From a virus, in IMG/VR virus record IMGVR_UViG_3300021142_000068, positions 1-42,276 of that record: a stretch of DNA of 42,276 bases; one strand, written 5' to 3'. Shown here piece after piece: positions 7,691 through 21,350 of this stretch. The notes beneath the pieces are model-generated. The model searched no databases. It had not been told where the DNA came from and saw only the letters and a program-made list of their open reading frames with translations. Position numbers and translations under genes: made by a program. Within the stretch, counting starts at the first letter, position 1. Each line of letters opens with the position of its first letter.

Positions 7691-8184
7691 AATTTGCATA
7701 CGCTGATCCGCCTTATTACACAATGGGTAAGAAGATGTATGGCAAACTGCATGAAGAGGCGGCGATTTGGGATGACAAACAATCGCACAGGGATTTAATA
7801 ATGCGACTTAAAACTGAATATCCCGATGGGTGGGCAATGTCTTGCAATCCGGCTAATTTGCATTGGCTTTTAGTTGACCATGATGATATTCGCATTTGCG
7901 CATGGACTAAAACTTTTCATCAAATTAGAGGAACAACCAATCAATTTGCTTGGGAAGCAGTGTTGCTGGGGGGGGGGCGAAAAGATAACAAACGCAAGCC
8001 AATGGTACGCGACTGGTTGTCTTGTCCAATAGCTATGAAAAAAGGATTACAAGGGGCAAAACCCGATAAGTTTAATGATTGGATTTTGGATTTACTTAAT
8101 TACCAAAACGGTGACACTTTGGATGACCTTTTTCCCGGCACTAATGGTATGGCCGAAGCAATTTTAAGAAGAGAGTTGACATGA
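7687..8184 (+). CDS. DNA adenine/cytosine-N4 methyltransferase-like protein
   Basis: The 165-aa protein carries the catalytic ADPPYY motif at residues 6-11 and ends with 'GDTLDDLFPGTNGM', the loop that holds S-adenosylmethionine in permuted DNA amino-methyltransferases of actinophages. It is shorter than stand-alone methylases but seems to have both halves. It would modify phage DNA, perhaps against host restriction; no partner nuclease is obvious. The gene is AT-richer than its neighbours (a 60-base count at 8041-8100 gives 19 G+C), suggesting transfer. A G10 run sits in its middle. Confidence 0.75.
   Translation: MKFAYADPPYYTMGKKMYGKLHEEAAIWDDKQSHRDLIMRLKTEYPDGWAMSCNPANLHWLLVDHDDIRICAWTKTFHQIRGTTNQFAWEAVLLGGGRKDNKRKPMVRDWLSCPIAMKKGLQGAKPDKFNDWILDLLNYQNGDTLDDLFPGTNGMAEAILRRELT
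7968..7977. repeat. G10 homopolymer inside the methyltransferase gene
   Basis: Ten consecutive G bases encode Gly-Gly-Gly after Leu in the present frame. A gain or loss of one G would truncate the protein. Such tracts slip readily during replication; a sequencing error is also possible. Confidence 0.85.
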
Positions 8185-8738
8185 CAACCGTCGTGGGCAT
8201 ACAGGGACCAACATGGGCTGTCATCGGTGGTGACAGTCGTGTTGTGGACGGCGGAAAGATAACCGACTTGCCCAAAAACGCTGGAAAAATTTTTAGAAAA
8301 AATGAATACATCGTTGCCATTGCCGGTGACTTTCGCGTGGGCCAAATCCTGCAACACGCCTTTGACTATCCCAAGCCACCGGACAATGTGAACCAAGAAG
8401 GCATGGATCGTTGGATGACTGCTGAGTTTATCCCGCTGCTCCAAGAGCATTACAAAGAAATGAACTACACAGTTGATAACGATTTGGGAAGCGAGGTTCT
8501 CATTGCAATCTCAGGAATTATTTACGCCTTGGATCAAGACTGGACTTGGGCAAGAGATAGACGAGGCATTTATGCAGCTGGTTCAGGACAGGCTTATGCC
8601 TACGGCGCACTCAGTGCTTACAATTTCCCTAAGTCTGCAAGTGATGCAACTAGCATCATCAAGCAAGCAATCAAAATCTCAGCTTCATATGATGTTAACA
8701 CAGCAGAACCAGCCATCGTCTTTAGCCAAGAGCCATGA
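8181..8738 (+). CDS. Proteasome beta/HslV-like Ntn-hydrolase
   Basis: The 185-aa protein aligns with proteasome beta subunits and HslV along its whole length. It starts MTTVVGI, so removal of Met would expose a catalytic Thr. Counting that Thr as 1, Asp17 and Arg19 fall in GGDSR exactly as in the 20S proteasome, and the lysine of KIF sits two residues later than Lys33. Later 'AAGSGQAYAYGAL' matches the conserved GSGS-A-Y-L helix start, and an Asp in 'SYDV' matches the Asp166 area. No propeptide is present, as in HslV. No ATPase partner is encoded nearby. It overlaps the methyltransferase stop by 4 nt. Confidence 0.8.
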   Translation: MTTVVGIQGPTWAVIGGDSRVVDGGKITDLPKNAGKIFRKNEYIVAIAGDFRVGQILQHAFDYPKPPDNVNQEGMDRWMTAEFIPLLQEHYKEMNYTVDNDLGSEVLIAISGIIYALDQDWTWARDRRGIYAAGSGQAYAYGALSAYNFPKSASDATSIIKQAIKISASYDVNTAEPAIVFSQEP

Positions 8739-9648: not shown

Positions 9649-10112
9649 GCATTATCGTTCCCCTAAGCATTGGCGATGTAACCTACTCAACCATCGAAGC
9701 AGTTGAGCGTTACAACTTTAACCGCGACAACGGCAGTTCTTGGTCAAACATTAGCAAGTCATGGCCAGAGGCTATCGCCCGTGAGATTAACGGCGTACTG
9801 GCTGAGATTGCAGTAGCTCGTTGGATGGATCGCTACCCATTCACACTCTTTGCTGATCGCAAAGAAGGCGATGTTGGCGGACATGAAGTTCGATCAACCG
9901 CATACTCATACGGCAAGCTGCTTTTCCAGAAAAAAGATCCAGAAGATCGCAAGTATTTTTTTGTAACAATTGATGGTCATTATGAAGCAACCATTGTGGG
10001 CTGGCTATGGGGCTGGGAAGGTAAGCAGGATCATTTCTGGGACGAGAAAATGCCTGTGCCTTGCTACGCAGTACCGCAGAGCGCACTGCATGATCCAGGA
10101 GATTTGAATTGA
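9645..10112 (+). CDS. Putative PD-(D/E)XK-like nuclease
   Basis: The 155-aa protein has a restriction-endonuclease-like arrangement: a helix 'INGVLAEIAVARWM' with a conserved Glu, then 'GDVGGHEVRST', where Asp and Glu-x-Arg take the place of D...ExK, then strands 'YFFVTI' and 'IVGWLWGW'. I recall similar proteins in many phage genomes without known function. The Arg in place of the usual Lys leaves activity uncertain. It overlaps the endonuclease VII gene and the following gene by 4 nt each. Confidence 0.6.
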   Translation: MSIIVPLSIGDVTYSTIEAVERYNFNRDNGSSWSNISKSWPEAIAREINGVLAEIAVARWMDRYPFTLFADRKEGDVGGHEVRSTAYSYGKLLFQKKDPEDRKYFFVTIDGHYEATIVGWLWGWEGKQDHFWDEKMPVPCYAVPQSALHDPGDLN

Positions 10113-10732
10113 GTTGGCTTGAAGATGCGCAAGAGATTGCCGGCACAGTCGCCCGTCAAGTCCACAAGCGTTACCACACGTATTTTGACATTGCGGATGT
10201 TAAACAAGAACTTATCGTCTGGGTCTTACGGCGTGAAGGCAAGTGCAAGGAGTGGCTTGACCATGATCCAGGTACTGAAGATTACAAGTCTGGTGTTAAC
10301 CTGCTTGCCAAAACTCTGCAACGCCATGCTGACAAGTATTGTCGCAGAGCTAAGGCGCAAGCGGTAGGTTACGAAACTCGGGATGAGGCGTACTACTCAC
10401 CAGAGATGCTTGAAACTATCCTGCCATTTGTCTGGCAATCTGTCATTCCTACCAGCAACCCTGCTGGAGAGCGCGTTAGCGGGGGTGGAGCGCCTTCTGA
10501 GGGCGGTAACTACATCATCTCGGTCATTGATGTACGCAAGGGTGTAAAGCGCTTAGAACCGGACGATCAGCTGATTTTGCACATGAAGTATGTTGAGCAG
10601 ATGACCTATGAGAAGGTCGCTGAAACGCTAGAAGTATCACGCTCGTCTGCTGAGCGTAAGATCAAAGGCGCGTTGCGCCGGTTGGTAAAGGAACTAGGCG
10701 GGCAGGACCCGTGGGCAAGGAGCAAAGAGTAA
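10109..10732 (+). CDS. Sigma-70-like/HTH transcription protein
   Basis: The 207-aa protein starts at TTG 10109, overlapping the previous stop, with GGAG just upstream. Its last 45 residues form a region-4-type helix-turn-helix ('MTYEKVAETLEVSRSSAERKI', split here as MTYEKVAETL and EVSRSSAERK). The N-terminal helical part, 'ADVKQELIVWVL', resembles sigma region 2 entry sequences. The middle is a Gly/Ser linker. It is probably a phage sigma-like factor or transcription activator that redirects host polymerase, possibly to late genes; its promoter target is not visible. Confidence 0.7.
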   Translation: MSWLEDAQEIAGTVARQVHKRYHTYFDIADVKQELIVWVLRREGKCKEWLDHDPGTEDYKSGVNLLAKTLQRHADKYCRRAKAQAVGYETRDEAYYSPEMLETILPFVWQSVIPTSNPAGERVSGGGAPSEGGNYIISVIDVRKGVKRLEPDDQLILHMKYVEQMTYEKVAETLEVSRSSAERKIKGALRRLVKELGGQDPWARSKE

Positions 10733-13531: not shown

Positions 13532-13890
13532 CCCACCCTCTTTTCATGTTTTAATGCGTTACAGGCGTTATTGTTCCAATGAGTCTTGATATAGCGCAAG
13601 CCCCAGCGGATTTGAGTTTGATAGTCATACTTGTAATCATTGCCGAATTGAGCCATCTTGTTAGCCGGCAGTGCTTGCGGAATACCCCGCGCCCCGCCGT
13701 GTTTATTGACCGCAGTTACCCGCCAATTACTTTCCATGGTCCAGAGTTTAACTAGGCAGCCCCACTGACGGGCGTTGCCACCTTGGCGCAGGTATAAAGT
13801 ATGGGCGAATTGCTTTGCGGGCGTTAAATGCTCGTTTGCAGCCTTTGTAGGGCAATTACTGACCCAGGTTGCGACCACGACTAATCCCAC
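13522..13890 (-). CDS. Secreted lysozyme/SLT-like muramidase
   Basis: The 122-aa product has a C-terminal transglycosylase-like domain: 'GCLVKLWTMESNWRVTAVNKHGGARGIPQ' read in pieces, with catalytic Glu53 in MESNW and GARGIPQ as the substrate loop, ending 'QTQIRWGLRYI'. The N terminus is hydrophobic (GLVVVATWV). The annotated start is GTG 13890, but the frame stays open upstream and encodes RRKRYIIGF, a better signal-peptide start without an ATG, GTG or TTG that I can find, so the true start is uncertain. It may weaken the wall from outside, or act in host-wall remodelling. It lies inside a regulatory operon, not the lysis cassette. Confidence 0.75.
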   Translation of the reverse strand: MGLVVVATWVSNCPTKAANEHLTPAKQFAHTLYLRQGGNARQWGCLVKLWTMESNWRVTAVNKHGGARGIPQALPANKMAQFGNDYKYDYQTQIRWGLRYIKTHWNNNACNALKHEKRVGWY

Positions 13891-14336
13891 AAATCCGATG
13901 ATGTATCTTTTACGGCGTGTAACCGATCGAGAAATTGAAATGTTGATGTTTTTGGCCTTTCCCTAGTTGTTACCTTCACTGGCAGTACGCCAGCTCGAGT
14001 AGCCTGTTGCCTAATACGGACCCATATTATTGATCGATCGTTCACGCCTTGCGGCATGCCAACCGACTTGCGCCGTTCCACCGGCAGTGTGCCACCGAAA
14101 ATGCCATAGTCAATTGTATGCGTATCTTTCATCGCATATTCAAGACATGAGTTATCTCTAAATAGGGGACATTCTTGGCAGATCTTCATTGCCAGAACCG
14201 CGTTAGCGATAGTGCGTTCTTGCTGCTCTTTCGCTGCTGGTGATGGCTTACCGCCTCGAAATGCGTGTTCTGGGAACCACCACTCTGGGTCGTATTCTTT
14301 ATTCGCGCAAGAGGGCTTAGCTCCTGGCTTAGTCAT
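13881..14336 (-). CDS. whiB: WhiB-like iron-sulfur transcription factor
   Basis: The 151-aa protein has the four WhiB cysteines (Cys10, Cys53, Cys56, Cys64) and the glycine turn 'YGIFGGT' (78-83), followed by the basic VERRK helix. DPEWWFPE after the first Cys is the usual aromatic segment. WhiB proteins bind a 4Fe-4S cluster and the main sigma factor and are confined to actinobacteria and their phages, so this gene dates the host. The last two cysteines are separated by seven residues, not the usual five. The C terminus has an extra 60 residues with basic patches. It overlaps its neighbours at both ends. Confidence 0.9.
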   Translation of the reverse strand: MTKPGAKPSCANKEYDPEWWFPEHAFRGGKPSPAAKEQQERTIANAVLAMKICQECPLFRDNSCLEYAMKDTHTIDYGIFGGTLPVERRKSVGMPQGVNDRSIIWVRIRQQATRAGVLPVKVTTRERPKTSTFQFLDRLHAVKDTSSDLWD

Positions 14337-16936: not shown

Positions 16937-17040
16937 GAAGTGGCAGCTACTTTCTGGAAGTTTGGAGCTTGAAGTTGTCCCAGAGGCGCAACTTGCAAGG
17001 GTCAAACCTGCCGCCTTGGCGGTTTGGGTGCTGGGTTGCA

Positions 17041-17076
17041 GCTCTAAATCTGGCTCTAAATTTAGCTCTAAATCTG
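17041..17076. repeat. Three tandem 12-bp repeats (gctctaaatctg type)
   Basis: The units at 17041, 17053 and 17065 read gctctaaatctg, gctctaaattta and gctctaaatctg. Units one and three are identical. Direct repeats of about one helix turn in a non-coding region resemble iterons that bind a replication initiator. Confidence 0.75.
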
Positions 17077-17236
17077 GACCGAGTTGGTGAATCGGGCGTT
17101 CGGGTATGGACCGATAGGGTCAAAGCTACTGTCCCACCACTAACCACCAAACACCAAAGATAATCCCCTAATCCGTATATATTTATTAATAATAGGTAGC
17201 AAACCAAACCCAAACCGTGTCGAAATTGCGCAACCG

Positions 17237-17255: not shown

Positions 17256-17395
17256 GTTAGCCGTAAATCACAACCGATTGCGCGTTTAGAATAGGTTGAT
17301 CGACTCGGGGGGTTTTAAGTATTAGTAAGGTTGTATTGTATTATCCACCCAATTATTTTTTCTAAATATAGGCTCTGACCTGCGGTTTTATTTAA

Positions 17396-17411
17396 TGTGA
17401 TAAAGATCACA
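17396..17411. promoter_or_regulatory. CRP/GlxR-type operator
   Basis: TGTGAT-aaag-ATCACA is a perfect palindrome matching the TGTGA-N6-TCACA consensus of CRP-family regulators, including actinobacterial GlxR. Its centre is about 45-50 bp upstream of the -10-like TATACT at 17448, near the distance used by activators. Confidence 0.75.
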
Positions 17412-17447
17412 CACCTCAAAGCGGGAAATGTGTCTAATTTCCCACCT

Positions 17448-17458
17448 TATACTATATA
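17448..17458 (+). promoter_or_regulatory. Probable -10 region of the terminase operon
   Basis: TATACT (17448-17453) overlaps TATATA (17453-17458), followed by a G run. No good -35 lies 17-18 nt upstream, which fits an activator-dependent promoter served by the palindrome at 17396. Confidence 0.5.
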
Positions 17459-17476
17459 GGGGGTTTTGTTCGCAGA

Positions 17477-17534
17477 CGGCTGTCAGCCGGCTGCTCACCC
17501 TACCCCAACGGGGCGTAGGCTACGCCGTAGCCCC
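17477..17534 (+). other. GC hairpins in the terminase leader
   Basis: CGGCTG-t-CAGCCG (17477-17489) is followed by GGCGTA-ggc-TACGCC (17512-17526), which competes with GGGGC/GCCCC pairing at 17510-17514 and 17530-17534. The mutually exclusive pairs could form an attenuator, though no T run follows. Confidence 0.45.
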
Positions 17535-17568
17535 TTATTGCTACCCATCGGCGGCGCCCCGCGCCACC

Positions 17569-17631
17569 CATAGGATATTTACATAGGGATAACCATAGGG
17601 CGCTTAGCAGCGCCAAAAGTATCACCATAGG
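17569..17631. repeat. Four CATAGG hexamers before the terminase gene
   Basis: Copies begin at 17569, 17582, 17594 and 17626; the first three are 12-13 bp apart. The third lies within ATAACCATAGG, also at 3317-3327 in front of the replication-block promoter. Confidence 0.6.
17599..17614 (+). other. Hairpin GGCGCT-tagc-AGCGCC before the terminase start
   Basis: A 6-bp perfect stem with a 4-nt loop, ending 35 nt before the ATG at 17650. It may shield or expose the GGTGGAG ribosome site region, or act as an attenuator; only four A bases follow. Confidence 0.5.
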
Positions 17632-17649
17632 AATTAAGGCGGGTGGAGT

Positions 17650-19566
17650 ATGGCCAATGGGCCAACTGGTCGACCATCGGCCAACAAATATAAAGTCGCG
17701 CCAGAGAGCAAAGTCTCAGCCTCTCAGGCTAAGCAGACGATTATCGAGCTAGTCACTAAGGGCTACAGCATCGCAGATGCTGTCAAGGTGACGGGTAAAT
17801 CAATCAAGTCCTACGAGTATTACCGTATGTCGGACGAGGATTTTAAGTCCGCGATTGACCTTGCTCGCGCCGTCCAGCGCCGAGACGGCGTGATTAGCGA
17901 CGAAGACAAAGCGATCAGCTTTGAGGACTTTCGTGAAAAGTACCTAAACAGCAAGACCTTCAATCACCAAAGAAATATCATCTCGATGCTTGAGGAAGGT
18001 AAGCCTGCTTGGCTTCACGGCAGCATGACTTACGAAGAAGGTTTTAGCAACTATGTGCTGGTGAACATGCCACCGGAACATGCTAAGTCGATGACAGTTT
18101 CAATTGACTACATTACCTATCGGATTTGTATTGACCCAAATATCCGTATCAAGATTGTGTCCAAAACGCTTACGATGGCAAAGGACTTTCTTTATGCGGT
18201 TAAGCAGAGGCTTACCCAGCCCGCTTACGCTGAACTTCAACGGCGCTATGCGCCCGCCGATGGCTACAAAGAGTCGGCAGATAAGTGGACCCAAGATGCG
18301 ATCTACCTTGAGCGTGACTCAGGTGAAAAAGATCCAACCCTTCAAGCATTGGGTATTGGCGGTCAGATCTATGGTGCCCGCGCAGACTTAATCGTTCTTG
18401 ACGACTGCGTTACCTTGGCTAACGCCAACGAGTACGAAAAGCAGATTCGTTGGATCCAACAGGAAGTTTTGACCCGTGTTGGTCCCACAGGCAAGATCTT
18501 GGTAGTTGGCACTCGCGTAGACCCAGTGGATCTATACCGAGAGATGCGCAACCCAGATCGTTACCCTGAAGGTCGCTCACCTTGGACATATTTGGCTATG
18601 CCAGCGGTTCTTGAGTTTGCAGATGACCCAAAGGATTGGAAGACCTTGTGGCCACGCTCTGACAAGCCTTGGCTTGGAGATGACGCGAACTTAGGTGATG
18701 ATGGATTGTATTCACGCTGGGACGGTCCGAACCTTCGTAAGCGCCGCGGTGTTCTTGACCCAAAGACTTGGGCGATGGTTTACCAGCAACAGGATGTGGA
18801 CAGCGAGGCTGTCTTTGCACCTGAGTGCGTTCGCGGTTCTGTTTCAGGTATGCGTTCATTTGGTCCGTTGCTACCAGGCGCACCTGGTCATCCAGCTGTA
18901 CTCAACAGCAGTTACACAATTTGCTCTATGGACCCAGCAATGTCCGGCGATACATTCTCGATCGCCTATGCTGGCGAAAAGACAACCCAGAAGCGTTATG
19001 TGCTAGAGGCAAGCCGTATGCCTGCTCCTACACCACAGCGCATTAGAGACTTGATCTTTGAATGGACTGAGAAGTACAAGCCATCGGTCTGGGTCATTGA
19101 GAAGAACGCCTTTCAGTTGTTCTTGACAATGGACGAAGAGATTAACCGATTCTTAGCCTCACGCGGTATTCGCCTTGTTCAGCACTACACCGGTGCCAAC
19201 AAGATGGATGCTGAGTTTGGCGTAGCCTCAATGGCTCCGCTCTTTGGTACTGTCGATAAACTCGGCAACCACATGGGCAACAACTTAATAGACTTGCCAC
19301 GGTCAGACAATGAAGGCGTAAAATCGCTCATAGAGCAGCTCATTACTTGGTCCGCTGGCACCAAAAATAAACAAGACGGTTGCATGGCGCTTTGGTTCGC
19401 AGAGACTCAGATGCGCGATTACATCAACCAAGCAGGAGCCTATGGCGGCTCCTTTATCAAAAACCCATTCCAGACCCGCGATCAGCAAGCTCGTCGTCGG
19501 GTAATTAACATCGAAGAATATCAGCGTGAAAAAGAAAGATTAGCGGCTAACGGGGGTTACTTATAG
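17650..19566 (+). CDS. terL: Terminase large subunit
   Basis: The 638-aa protein has an ATPase half and a nuclease half. The Walker A-like loop is the deviant PPEHAKS (141-147), Walker B is LIVLDD (247-252), and the RNase H-like nuclease acids fall at Asp428 (SMDPAMSGD), Glu484 (VIEKNAF) and Asp576 (KQDGCMA). Residues 25-70 form a helix-turn-helix-like segment ('GYSIADAVKVTGKS'), a feature usually carried by the small terminase, which I do not find separately. The motor cuts and pumps DNA into the prohead. It starts behind GGTGGAG and is followed at once by the portal gene. Confidence 0.93.
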   Translation: MANGPTGRPSANKYKVAPESKVSASQAKQTIIELVTKGYSIADAVKVTGKSIKSYEYYRMSDEDFKSAIDLARAVQRRDGVISDEDKAISFEDFREKYLNSKTFNHQRNIISMLEEGKPAWLHGSMTYEEGFSNYVLVNMPPEHAKSMTVSIDYITYRICIDPNIRIKIVSKTLTMAKDFLYAVKQRLTQPAYAELQRRYAPADGYKESADKWTQDAIYLERDSGEKDPTLQALGIGGQIYGARADLIVLDDCVTLANANEYEKQIRWIQQEVLTRVGPTGKILVVGTRVDPVDLYREMRNPDRYPEGRSPWTYLAMPAVLEFADDPKDWKTLWPRSDKPWLGDDANLGDDGLYSRWDGPNLRKRRGVLDPKTWAMVYQQQDVDSEAVFAPECVRGSVSGMRSFGPLLPGAPGHPAVLNSSYTICSMDPAMSGDTFSIAYAGEKTTQKRYVLEASRMPAPTPQRIRDLIFEWTEKYKPSVWVIEKNAFQLFLTMDEEINRFLASRGIRLVQHYTGANKMDAEFGVASMAPLFGTVDKLGNHMGNNLIDLPRSDNEGVKSLIEQLITWSAGTKNKQDGCMALWFAETQMRDYINQAGAYGGSFIKNPFQTRDQQARRRVINIEEYQREKERLAANGGYL

Positions 19567-21350
19567 TGCTAGAGATTGACCAGATCGGAGATAAACTCCG
19601 TAAACTGCGCGCTCACTATTTCGCACGTGACTCGCGTTATGATGACCTATTGGCCATCCGTCAAGGCAAAATCGATCAAGTGTTTCCTGGCATGTTCTCA
19701 GAGGACTATCCAAAGCCAATGATCGCTAACTTCATCGATGTTGCCGCCCGCGACGTTGCTGAAGTTATTGCTCCGCTTCCTGCTTTCAACTGCATGACAA
19801 CCAACACCACTTCGGATGCTGCTCGTCGTCGTGCTGATAAGCGCACCATGATTGCCGCTGGCTACCGCGACACAGCCAACCTTCAGACCATGATGTACAC
19901 CGGTGCTGATCGTTACCTTACCTTTGGCTGGTTGCCATTCATCATTGAGCCAGACTTTGAGAACAAGCGCCCAATGATCCGCATTGATTCACCTATCGGT
20001 GCCTATCCAGAGTTTGATAGATTCTCACGCCTTGTCTCTTACTCAAAGCGTTATGTCAAGACTGTTCGTGAATTGATTAACGACTTTCCTGAGCATGAGT
20101 CTGTTATCCGTGGTCAGTATGAGAACCGCAACTCTGAGCGCATCCTTGAGATGTATCGCTATCAAGACAAAGACCAAATGGTCTTGTTCTTGCCAGAACG
20201 CAATAACTTCGTTCTTTCACGCGTTGAAAATGAACTAGGTGAAATTCCTGTAGCCATTGCGCTACGCCCAGGCGTTGACTCAGATGAGCACCAACGCGGT
20301 CAGTTCGATGACATTATGTGGGTACAGGTTGCTCGCTCACGCTTTGCTTCGCTCACACTTGAAGCAGCGCAGAAGGCAGTTCAAGCACCGTTTGCTTTGC
20401 CTTCAGATGTTAATGTGCTTGAGATTGGCCCAGATGCAACTATCCGCTCTGCCAACCCACAGCAGATCCGTCGTGTAGATCTTAACCTTCCAGCCAATAT
20501 TTTCCAAGAGAACGAGATTCTCGATCAGGAAATGCGTACTGGCTCACGCTATCCAGAAGGCCGTCTAGGTCAGCAGTCTGGTTCGATCGTTACAGGTCGT
20601 GGCGTAGAAGCATTGATGGGTGGCTTTGATACTCAAGTCAAGACAGCCCAAGGTGTATTTGCAGAAACATTCCGTGAGGTTATTCGTCTGTGCTTTATGA
20701 TGGACGAAAAGATGTTTGGCGATGTTACAAAGGAAGTTCGTGGCATTAATGCCGGTGCTCCTTATGTCGTCACCTACACACCAAAGGAAGACATTAAGGG
20801 TGACTACACCTGCGATGTGACCTATGGCATGATGGCTGGTCTTGATCCAAACCGTGCGCTTGTTTTCGGACTACAAGCCCGTGGCGACAAGCTAATCAGC
20901 CGTGACTTTTTGCGTCGCCAAATGCCTTGGGAAATGAACGTTACCCAAGAAGAAGAGCGAGTCGAAGTAGAAGAACTGCGCGATAGTTTGATGCAAGCAG
21001 TTGCATCTTATGCCAATGCTCTTCCACAAATTGCAATGCAAGGTGGCGATCCTTCAAAGGTTATTAACGCCATTGCTAAGGTTATTCAAGGTCGTCAAAA
21101 AGGCGATCCAATTGAAGAAATTGTAGCTGAAGCATTTGCTCCTGAACCAGCACCAGAACAGCCACAGGCTGCTGGTCTGCCAGGACAACCACCTCAAGCA
21201 CCTGGAGCACAACCAGGGCAACCACCGATGGCTATGCCGGCACCTCAACAAGGCCAAGGTGGCTCTGCTTTGCAACAACTACTAGCCGGCCTTTCGTCTT
21301 CTGGAGCACCGCAGTTAGCTGCGTCAGTTTCCAGAAGGTCGCCAGCCTAA
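19566..21350 (+). CDS. Portal protein
   Basis: The 594-aa product starts at GTG 19566, overlapping the terminase stop by one base. It is identified by size, place directly after terminase, a helical wing with 'YFARDSRYDDLLAIRQGK', a beta-rich centre and the long helical stem with 'GQQSGSIVTGRGVEALMGG', then a Pro/Gln/Gly-rich disordered tail of about 70 residues from 'APEPAPEQPQ'. A dodecameric ring at the capsid vertex is expected. The low-complexity tail may contact scaffold or internal proteins. Confidence 0.85.
   Translation: MLEIDQIGDKLRKLRAHYFARDSRYDDLLAIRQGKIDQVFPGMFSEDYPKPMIANFIDVAARDVAEVIAPLPAFNCMTTNTTSDAARRRADKRTMIAAGYRDTANLQTMMYTGADRYLTFGWLPFIIEPDFENKRPMIRIDSPIGAYPEFDRFSRLVSYSKRYVKTVRELINDFPEHESVIRGQYENRNSERILEMYRYQDKDQMVLFLPERNNFVLSRVENELGEIPVAIALRPGVDSDEHQRGQFDDIMWVQVARSRFASLTLEAAQKAVQAPFALPSDVNVLEIGPDATIRSANPQQIRRVDLNLPANIFQENEILDQEMRTGSRYPEGRLGQQSGSIVTGRGVEALMGGFDTQVKTAQGVFAETFREVIRLCFMMDEKMFGDVTKEVRGINAGAPYVVTYTPKEDIKGDYTCDVTYGMMAGLDPNRALVFGLQARGDKLISRDFLRRQMPWEMNVTQEEERVEVEELRDSLMQAVASYANALPQIAMQGGDPSKVINAIAKVIQGRQKGDPIEEIVAEAFAPEPAPEQPQAAGLPGQPPQAPGAQPGQPPMAMPAPQQGQGGSALQQLLAGLSSSGAPQLAASVSRRSPA

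Follow-up and report, generated by a model that had tools for sequence, protein, structure and literature searches.

Why does a virus carry, upstream of its terminase gene, a palindrome that perfectly matches the consensus of CRP-family regulators? The locus lies in IMG/VR record IMGVR_UViG_3300021142_000068, whose 42,276 nucleotides were analysed as one stretch, here called the window; a 126-base repeat shared by its two ends makes a complete circular assembly probable. An earlier note on this DNA, made from the letters alone, had described a CRP/GlxR-type palindrome upstream of the terminase operon, followed at activator distance by a -10-like TATACT without a good -35, and had suggested that the phage may couple late or packaging transcription to the cAMP or carbon status of its host.

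A single CRP-type palindrome upstream of terL

The palindrome, TGTGATAAAGATCACA, could be read directly from the letters of the window, where it occurs once and is strand-neutral (Table 1). The longer pattern TGTGAT-N4-6-ATCACA, of which the window holds one occurrence, was present in 2 of 100 dinucleotide shuffles, and TGTGATAAAGATCACA is the sole site in the 42,276-base record with at most one mismatch to TGTGA-N6-TCACA. With up to two mismatches allowed, this motif was not enriched genome-wide in the window (13 found against 23 expected), so the case rests on the single perfect site and on its conservation. TGTGATAAAGATCACA has the features expected of a CRP/GlxR operator, combining the TGTGA-N6-TCACA palindrome with the GTG-N8-CAC core, and its conservation goes beyond neutral drift, as judged from the relatives and control scans described below. 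Two related identities were considered and rejected. NtcA is a CRP-family regulator, and TGTGATAAAGATCACA contains no GTA-N8-TAC of the cyanophage NtcA type; an FNR-type site is TTGAT-N4-ATCAA, and the arms in the window are TGTGA/TCACA rather than TTGAT.

The palindrome lies in a non-coding control region between leftward genes ending towards 16770 and a rightward block beginning at 17650. The first gene of this block is terL, confirming that a terminase gene lies downstream, and the next encodes the portal protein. The same control region holds three head-to-tail copies of AGCTCTAAATCTGG (17040-17077). The TATACT hexamer was also placed correctly by the earlier note, and it runs into a second hexamer, TATATA; a promoter scan of the window listed no promoter-like pair on the + strand near 17448-17458, hence our agreement that the terL promoter has no good -35. 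Transcription is predicted to start at about 17460-17465. Between the palindrome and the -10-like element, in the -35 region, we found an inverted repeat that the earlier note did not mention and that is likely a lineage-specific second input. The left flank of the palindrome occurs in two subtypes among relatives, the GGCTCTGACCTGCGGTTTTA type and AGTATAAAATACTGACTTTA, and may serve either as a leftward promoter element or as an AT-rich contact region.

Table 1. Features of the window discussed in the text
Feature	Position	Strand	Basis or detail
ECF-like sigma factor	10109..10732	+	Sigma70_r4; TIGR02937, 45.2 bits (cut-off 42.9)
WhiB-like protein	13881..14336	-	PF02467; phrog_472
Conserved left flank, GGCTCTGACCTGCGGTTTTA type	17370..17395	+	Aligned flanks of relatives
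CRP/GlxR-type palindrome TGTGATAAAGATCACA	17396..17411	.	Sequence and conservation in relatives
Inverted repeat GGGAAAT..ATTTCCC, -35 region	17418..17448 (arms 17418-17429 and 17437-17448)	.	Inverted-repeat search
-10-like element TATACTATATA	17448..17458	+	TATACT 17448-17453 running into TATATA 17453-17458
Untranslated leader of terL, weakly conserved	17459..17649	+	0.30 bits/column, offsets 70-129 of relatives
Terminase large subunit (terL), 638 aa, first gene downstream of the palindrome	17650..19566	+	phrog_38, E 1.2e-64
Portal protein, next gene in the rightward block with terL	19566..21350	+	phrog_104, E 9.5e-24

Two regulatory genes of the window, encoding an ECF-like sigma factor and a WhiB-like protein, recur in the argument below. 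The sigma factor is 26% identical to that of phage Immanuel3 (36197-36880) and has a counterpart in phage E7 (36477-37163); we regard it as a candidate late sigma factor and a plausible partner at the late promoter. The window also carries a gene for a proteasome/HslV-like peptidase (8181-8738, + strand; phrog_1040, PF00227). A DNA-level search of its late region against cultured phages returned no match.

Conservation among close relatives

Conservation of the palindrome in related phages was one of the checks set beforehand. For the window's own clade we took the best 80 TerL loci among the IMG/VR matches listed, at 74-100% identity. In 70 of these 80, the 450 bp upstream of terL contain the palindrome with no more than one mismatch. 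Nine of the ten relatives lacking the site have no more than 306 bp of sequence upstream of terL; the other, L026, has enough upstream sequence and yielded no site in a region that holds Ns. With the window and a further contig, L082, counted in, the 72 loci represent 47 distinct promoters. Of these, 46 share one spacing, exactly 51 bp from the start of the palindrome to a TATATATAGGGG-like -10 (TTAnTATATATAGGGG or a near variant), as against 60 in L027 and L030.

Across 27 promoters with less than 85% mutual identity, information content averages 1.88 bits in the ten arm columns, 0.96 in the inner six and 0.30 per column in the leader, with the qualification that this set holds only sites with at most one mismatch (L002, L027 and L030 left out) and that selecting promoters for having a site flatters the arms, not the -10 or the spacer contrast.

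L082 (CAIVXR010000185.1) is a 5.7 kb contig carrying the promoter module with one mismatch. We rejected it as evidence of the host: its metagenome-assembled genome, titled beta proteobacterium, has neither HTH_Crp_2 nor WhiB, and the contig is therefore probably actinophage-like sequence mis-binned into that genome.

Conservation in more distant phages

Three more distant groups were compared. In a clade at about 50% TerL identity, 55 of 80 loci offered 600 bp or more of upstream sequence and were counted; 45 of these 55 have the site, only 21 of them in exact form. The spacing to the -10 is 50-51 in 34 of 42 distinct stretches and 65-66 in seven loci, and is 65 in the four examined loci with two-mismatch sites. 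We tested whether helical phasing accounts for these outliers and found it unsupported, a shift of 14-15 bp not amounting to whole helical turns.

The Streptomyces podoviruses of the Beephvirinae (TerL identity 43-45%) have two tandem sites, 46-57 bp apart, in all ten phages examined. Their proximal site begins with CGTGA in eight of the ten, and starts 49-51 bp before a -10 of the GTATATATATA type (GTATA..TATA). Among environmental relatives of these podoviruses, the site was present in 40 of the 52 loci used; the 52 were drawn from 75 by our own choice, dropping deposited isolates, re-found loci of the window's clade and loci that were too short or partial.

The third group comprises the Planktophila phages E7 and F5 and their clade (TerL identity 47%), for which 69 of 80 loci were used and the site was found in 42 of the 56 with at least 900 bp upstream. 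E7 and F5 are described as isolated on Ca. Planktophila LanE-43 and as carrying whiB and a sigma-70 gene (PMC10202952). Both isolates have CRP-type sites upstream of terL without clear -10 geometry, and in the clade as a whole the sites lie from 240 to about 1480 bp upstream of terL with no -10 at a clear fixed distance. Control regions in this clade (L173-L252) contain several CRP-type sites each, some adjoining leftward genes. More than one promoter may be under CRP control in these phages.

At whole-genome scale, sites with at most one mismatch number one in the window, two in Immanuel3, two in E7 and four in F5, and in these four genomes they are confined to the control region on the terL side, save for one extra one-mismatch site in F5. 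Exact sites were found in five of six records of the lineage versus none of four unrelated actinophage records. Among remote TerL relatives of other actinophages, no site with at most one mismatch was found in the stretches compared, and no exact one in the whole records.

Every site counted in the four clade sets has the GTG and CAC cores unchanged, the count covering sites with at most one mismatch in hand-picked locus lists. The inverted repeat in the -35 region keeps its place and changes its sequence by clade, reading GGGAT..ATCCC or GGAAA..TTTCC, and CCTGTCCC..GGGACAGG in the Streptomyces phages. Phages that have diverged widely, some of them Streptomyces isolates, thus keep the site, its position and the -10 spacing, and sites of the same type occur in two Ca. 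Planktophila isolates. The condition that would have refuted the earlier note, a palindrome that is not conserved, therefore did not arise.

Blind tests and control scans

We also scored all 5-mer dyads with gaps of 0-12 in the DNA upstream of terL in the four clades. The set comprised 129 non-redundant regions from loci that supplied 60% or more of the desired upstream length, without L002. TGTGA-N6-TCACA was present in 80 regions, the next dyad in 28, and shuffled upstream regions gave about zero. By clade, this dyad ranked first in two sets (18 of 25 and 25 of 36), second in another (27 of 38) and only seventh in the clade at about 50% TerL identity (10 of 30).

A scan of IMG/VR for the palindrome followed by N39-43 and TATANTNGGG returned 99 stretches, against one for a control pattern with scrambled arms. 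A terL relative lies downstream in 72 of the 80 stored matches; seven of the others end within 366 bp and one, L275, is truly without. The pattern itself demands the palindrome, so the independent evidence here consists of the downstream gene and the control scan.

Tandem sites alone were rejected as a marker of the lineage: among 84 IMG/VR stretches examined, 18 had a TerL match, several of these below 40% identity, and most stretches came from other viruses. Eight of these contigs (L438, L443, L449, L476, L488, L490, L492 and L501) have two CRP-type palindromes flanking DnaA-box-like TTATCCACA/TGTGGATAA, an arrangement, in these other viral contigs, that resembles an origin of replication with a CRP site on either side. 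Another five (L440, L447, L473, L487 and L509) have tandem CRP-type sites around a CTGTAAGGTAC(A/G)CCTAACAC(G/A)AAC..TGTTCGTAC core, a recurring arrangement that is not tied to terL of the present lineage.

Predicted action at the terminase promoter

We think it likely, on the strength of sequence conservation, that the palindrome is an operator at which the host's CRP/GlxR-type cAMP receptor protein activates the terL promoter. The host dimer would sit on the palindrome about six turns upstream of the start, with its centre predicted near -61.5 if transcription begins 7 nt after the TATATA hexamer, or near -56 should TATACT be the element in use. From this position, which resembles that of a class I activator, the bound dimer would help RNA polymerase to open a rightward promoter that has no -35, leading to transcription of terL and the structural genes behind it. 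The lineage-specific inverted repeat, the ECF-like sigma factor of the phage and the WhiB protein are likely further inputs. The activator distance that had been claimed is supported by the fixed -10 spacing in relatives; the class I geometry is to be read with the start as a prediction and with a spacing of 50-51 in most loci, 60 and 65-66 in some. We infer binding by host CRP/GlxR, dependence on cAMP, activation and not repression, and late timing; the phage would in this way couple packaging to carbon status.

The strongest competing explanation, which we judge unlikely, is that host CRP serves mainly as a repressor or timer, either shutting a leftward early promoter in the left flank (17370-17395) or holding terL low until cAMP falls; one site could also turn the leftward direction off and the rightward on. 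Genes point away from the control region on both sides, on the - strand up to 16770 and on the + strand from 17650, the left flank with its two subtypes is conserved too, and E7-clade sites adjoin leftward genes. Against repression stand the fixed distance from the site to the rightward -10 in three clades, with no overlap between the two, and the rightward promoter itself, whose missing -35 makes activation the simplest reading.

Host and likely reader of the site

The WhiB gene of the window supports an actinobacterial host. The WhiB domain (PF02467) was found in three of the phages (the window, E7 and Immanuel3); of 14 control genomes, C. glutamicum alone has it. On this pattern, the window almost surely has an actinobacterial host. 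Profile searches of the window, E7, F5 and Immanuel3 detected neither a Crp-type HTH (PF13545) nor a cyclic-nucleotide domain (PF00027); the C. glutamicum genome, included as a positive control, matched the HTH_Crp_2 profile. Since the phages tested encode no CRP-family protein, the most likely reader of the site, as far as these genomes indicate, is the host's own CRP/GlxR.

The absence of both domains from four genomes also weighs against a phage-encoded DNA-binding protein reading a palindrome whose likeness to CRP sites is convergent, an explanation to which we give little credence. These phages do carry regulators (WhiB, the ECF-like sigma factor) and many small proteins without an assigned role. 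No WhiB or ECF sigma factor is known to read TGTGA-N6-TCACA, and the CRP-type core stays constant while the neighbouring inverted repeat varies by clade, which fits a constant host factor.

The published motif is given as GTG(N)8CAC for GlxR of C. glutamicum and as GTG(N)6GNCAC for Crp of S. coelicolor (PMC10033298). All counted phage sites have the GlxR core, in line with the GlxR-type match originally proposed; GTG(N)6GNCAC, on either strand, fits 34 of 43, 16 of 39, 46 of 53 and 30 of 63 sites in the four clade sets. The phage sites thus share the palindrome core of actinobacterial GlxR/Crp operators, with GTG and CAC invariant, and differ from them in standing at a terminase promoter and in that only part of them fit the longer Crp motif.

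Two further explanations fared poorly. That the palindrome is part of a packaging signal, a terminase binding or cleavage site, we hold to be very improbable: such signals often lie beside terL, the palindrome is next to terL between the early and late blocks, and the Abafar record has an exact copy at its right end, inside the terminal repeat, but the repeat of Immanuel3 ends at 275 and its sites start outside it, at 304 and 359, and a packaging signal would have no need to keep its distance from a -10 constant or to share a CRP core with host regulators. Chance, or shared descent without function, is refuted as far as sequence can do so: the relatives share ancestry and the window is not enriched in two-mismatch sites, yet the arms are fixed while the spacer and leader drift, and the scrambled and shuffled controls gave 1 against 99 and about zero.

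Discussion

Phage sites for a CRP-family regulator of the host are already known: in T4-like cyanophages, NtcA sites are predicted upstream of phage genes in 16 of 16 genomes, at 1-16 per genome (PMC3037559). The present sites are likewise predictions for a host CRP-family regulator upstream of phage genes, but the cyanophage case involves another regulator, ligand and motif (GTA-N8-TAC) and many genes, and in the actinophages a single promoter has one or two sites at a set spacing. The regulated promoter can also be set beside cellular ones. At E. coli lac, a class I CRP promoter, the CRP site is centred near -61.5. The predicted centre in the phage would coincide with this, whereas the phage promoter has no -35 box, has an extra inverted repeat in that place, would be used by an actinobacterial polymerase and has a predicted start. 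In temperate coliphages such as lambda and P22, cAMP-CRP affects lysogeny. There the cAMP state of the host steers a phage decision, as we propose for the actinophages, with the difference that the effect is on lysis versus lysogeny and in the actinophages a direct site is predicted at the terminase promoter.

As far as our literature searches reach, a CRP/GlxR site at a conserved terminase promoter of actinophages is new; searches of the open-licence literature on CRP, GlxR or cAMP at phage promoters, on Beephvirinae and on Abafar found no report of CRP sites at such promoters, and one on CRP in Planktophila yielded nothing of use. Cultured members of the lineage are at hand, namely Abafar and other Beephvirinae on Streptomyces, and E7 and F5 on Ca. 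Planktophila. Mutants of S. coelicolor in crp and cya have been made. A correction note gives S. coelicolor A3(2) as the host of Abafar (PMC12323648), which is described as virulent in a paper whose main text contains no occurrence of cAMP, Crp or promoter (PMC11536984).

That relatives with very different bacterial hosts keep the site of this virus of lake bacteria suggests a role for the host cAMP signal in helping to switch on the late genes of these viruses. Since the inverted repeat differs by clade and the CRP-type core does not, we read the terL promoter as a probable pairing of a constant host factor with a drifting phage factor. A broader and more tentative proposal, which we advance as possible rather than established, is that in a widespread actinophage lineage reaching from Streptomyces to freshwater Nanopelagicales hosts (the latter judged by the window's relatives) the terminase promoter is a three-input gate, with host cAMP-CRP/GlxR as the constant input and the phage inputs, namely the inverted repeat, the ECF-like sigma factor and perhaps WhiB, diverging from lineage to lineage.

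A constant, host-read site beside a drifting neighbour would show cleanly which elements a phage retains and which it alters on moving between hosts. If the host's carbon regulator is obligatory at the terminase promoter, burst size and latent period would follow host cAMP, which would explain in mechanistic terms how lysis in lakes and soil could depend on nutrients. If the three-input gate is real, host cAMP, a signal of carbon and energy, would license the late genes of phages in very abundant lake bacteria.
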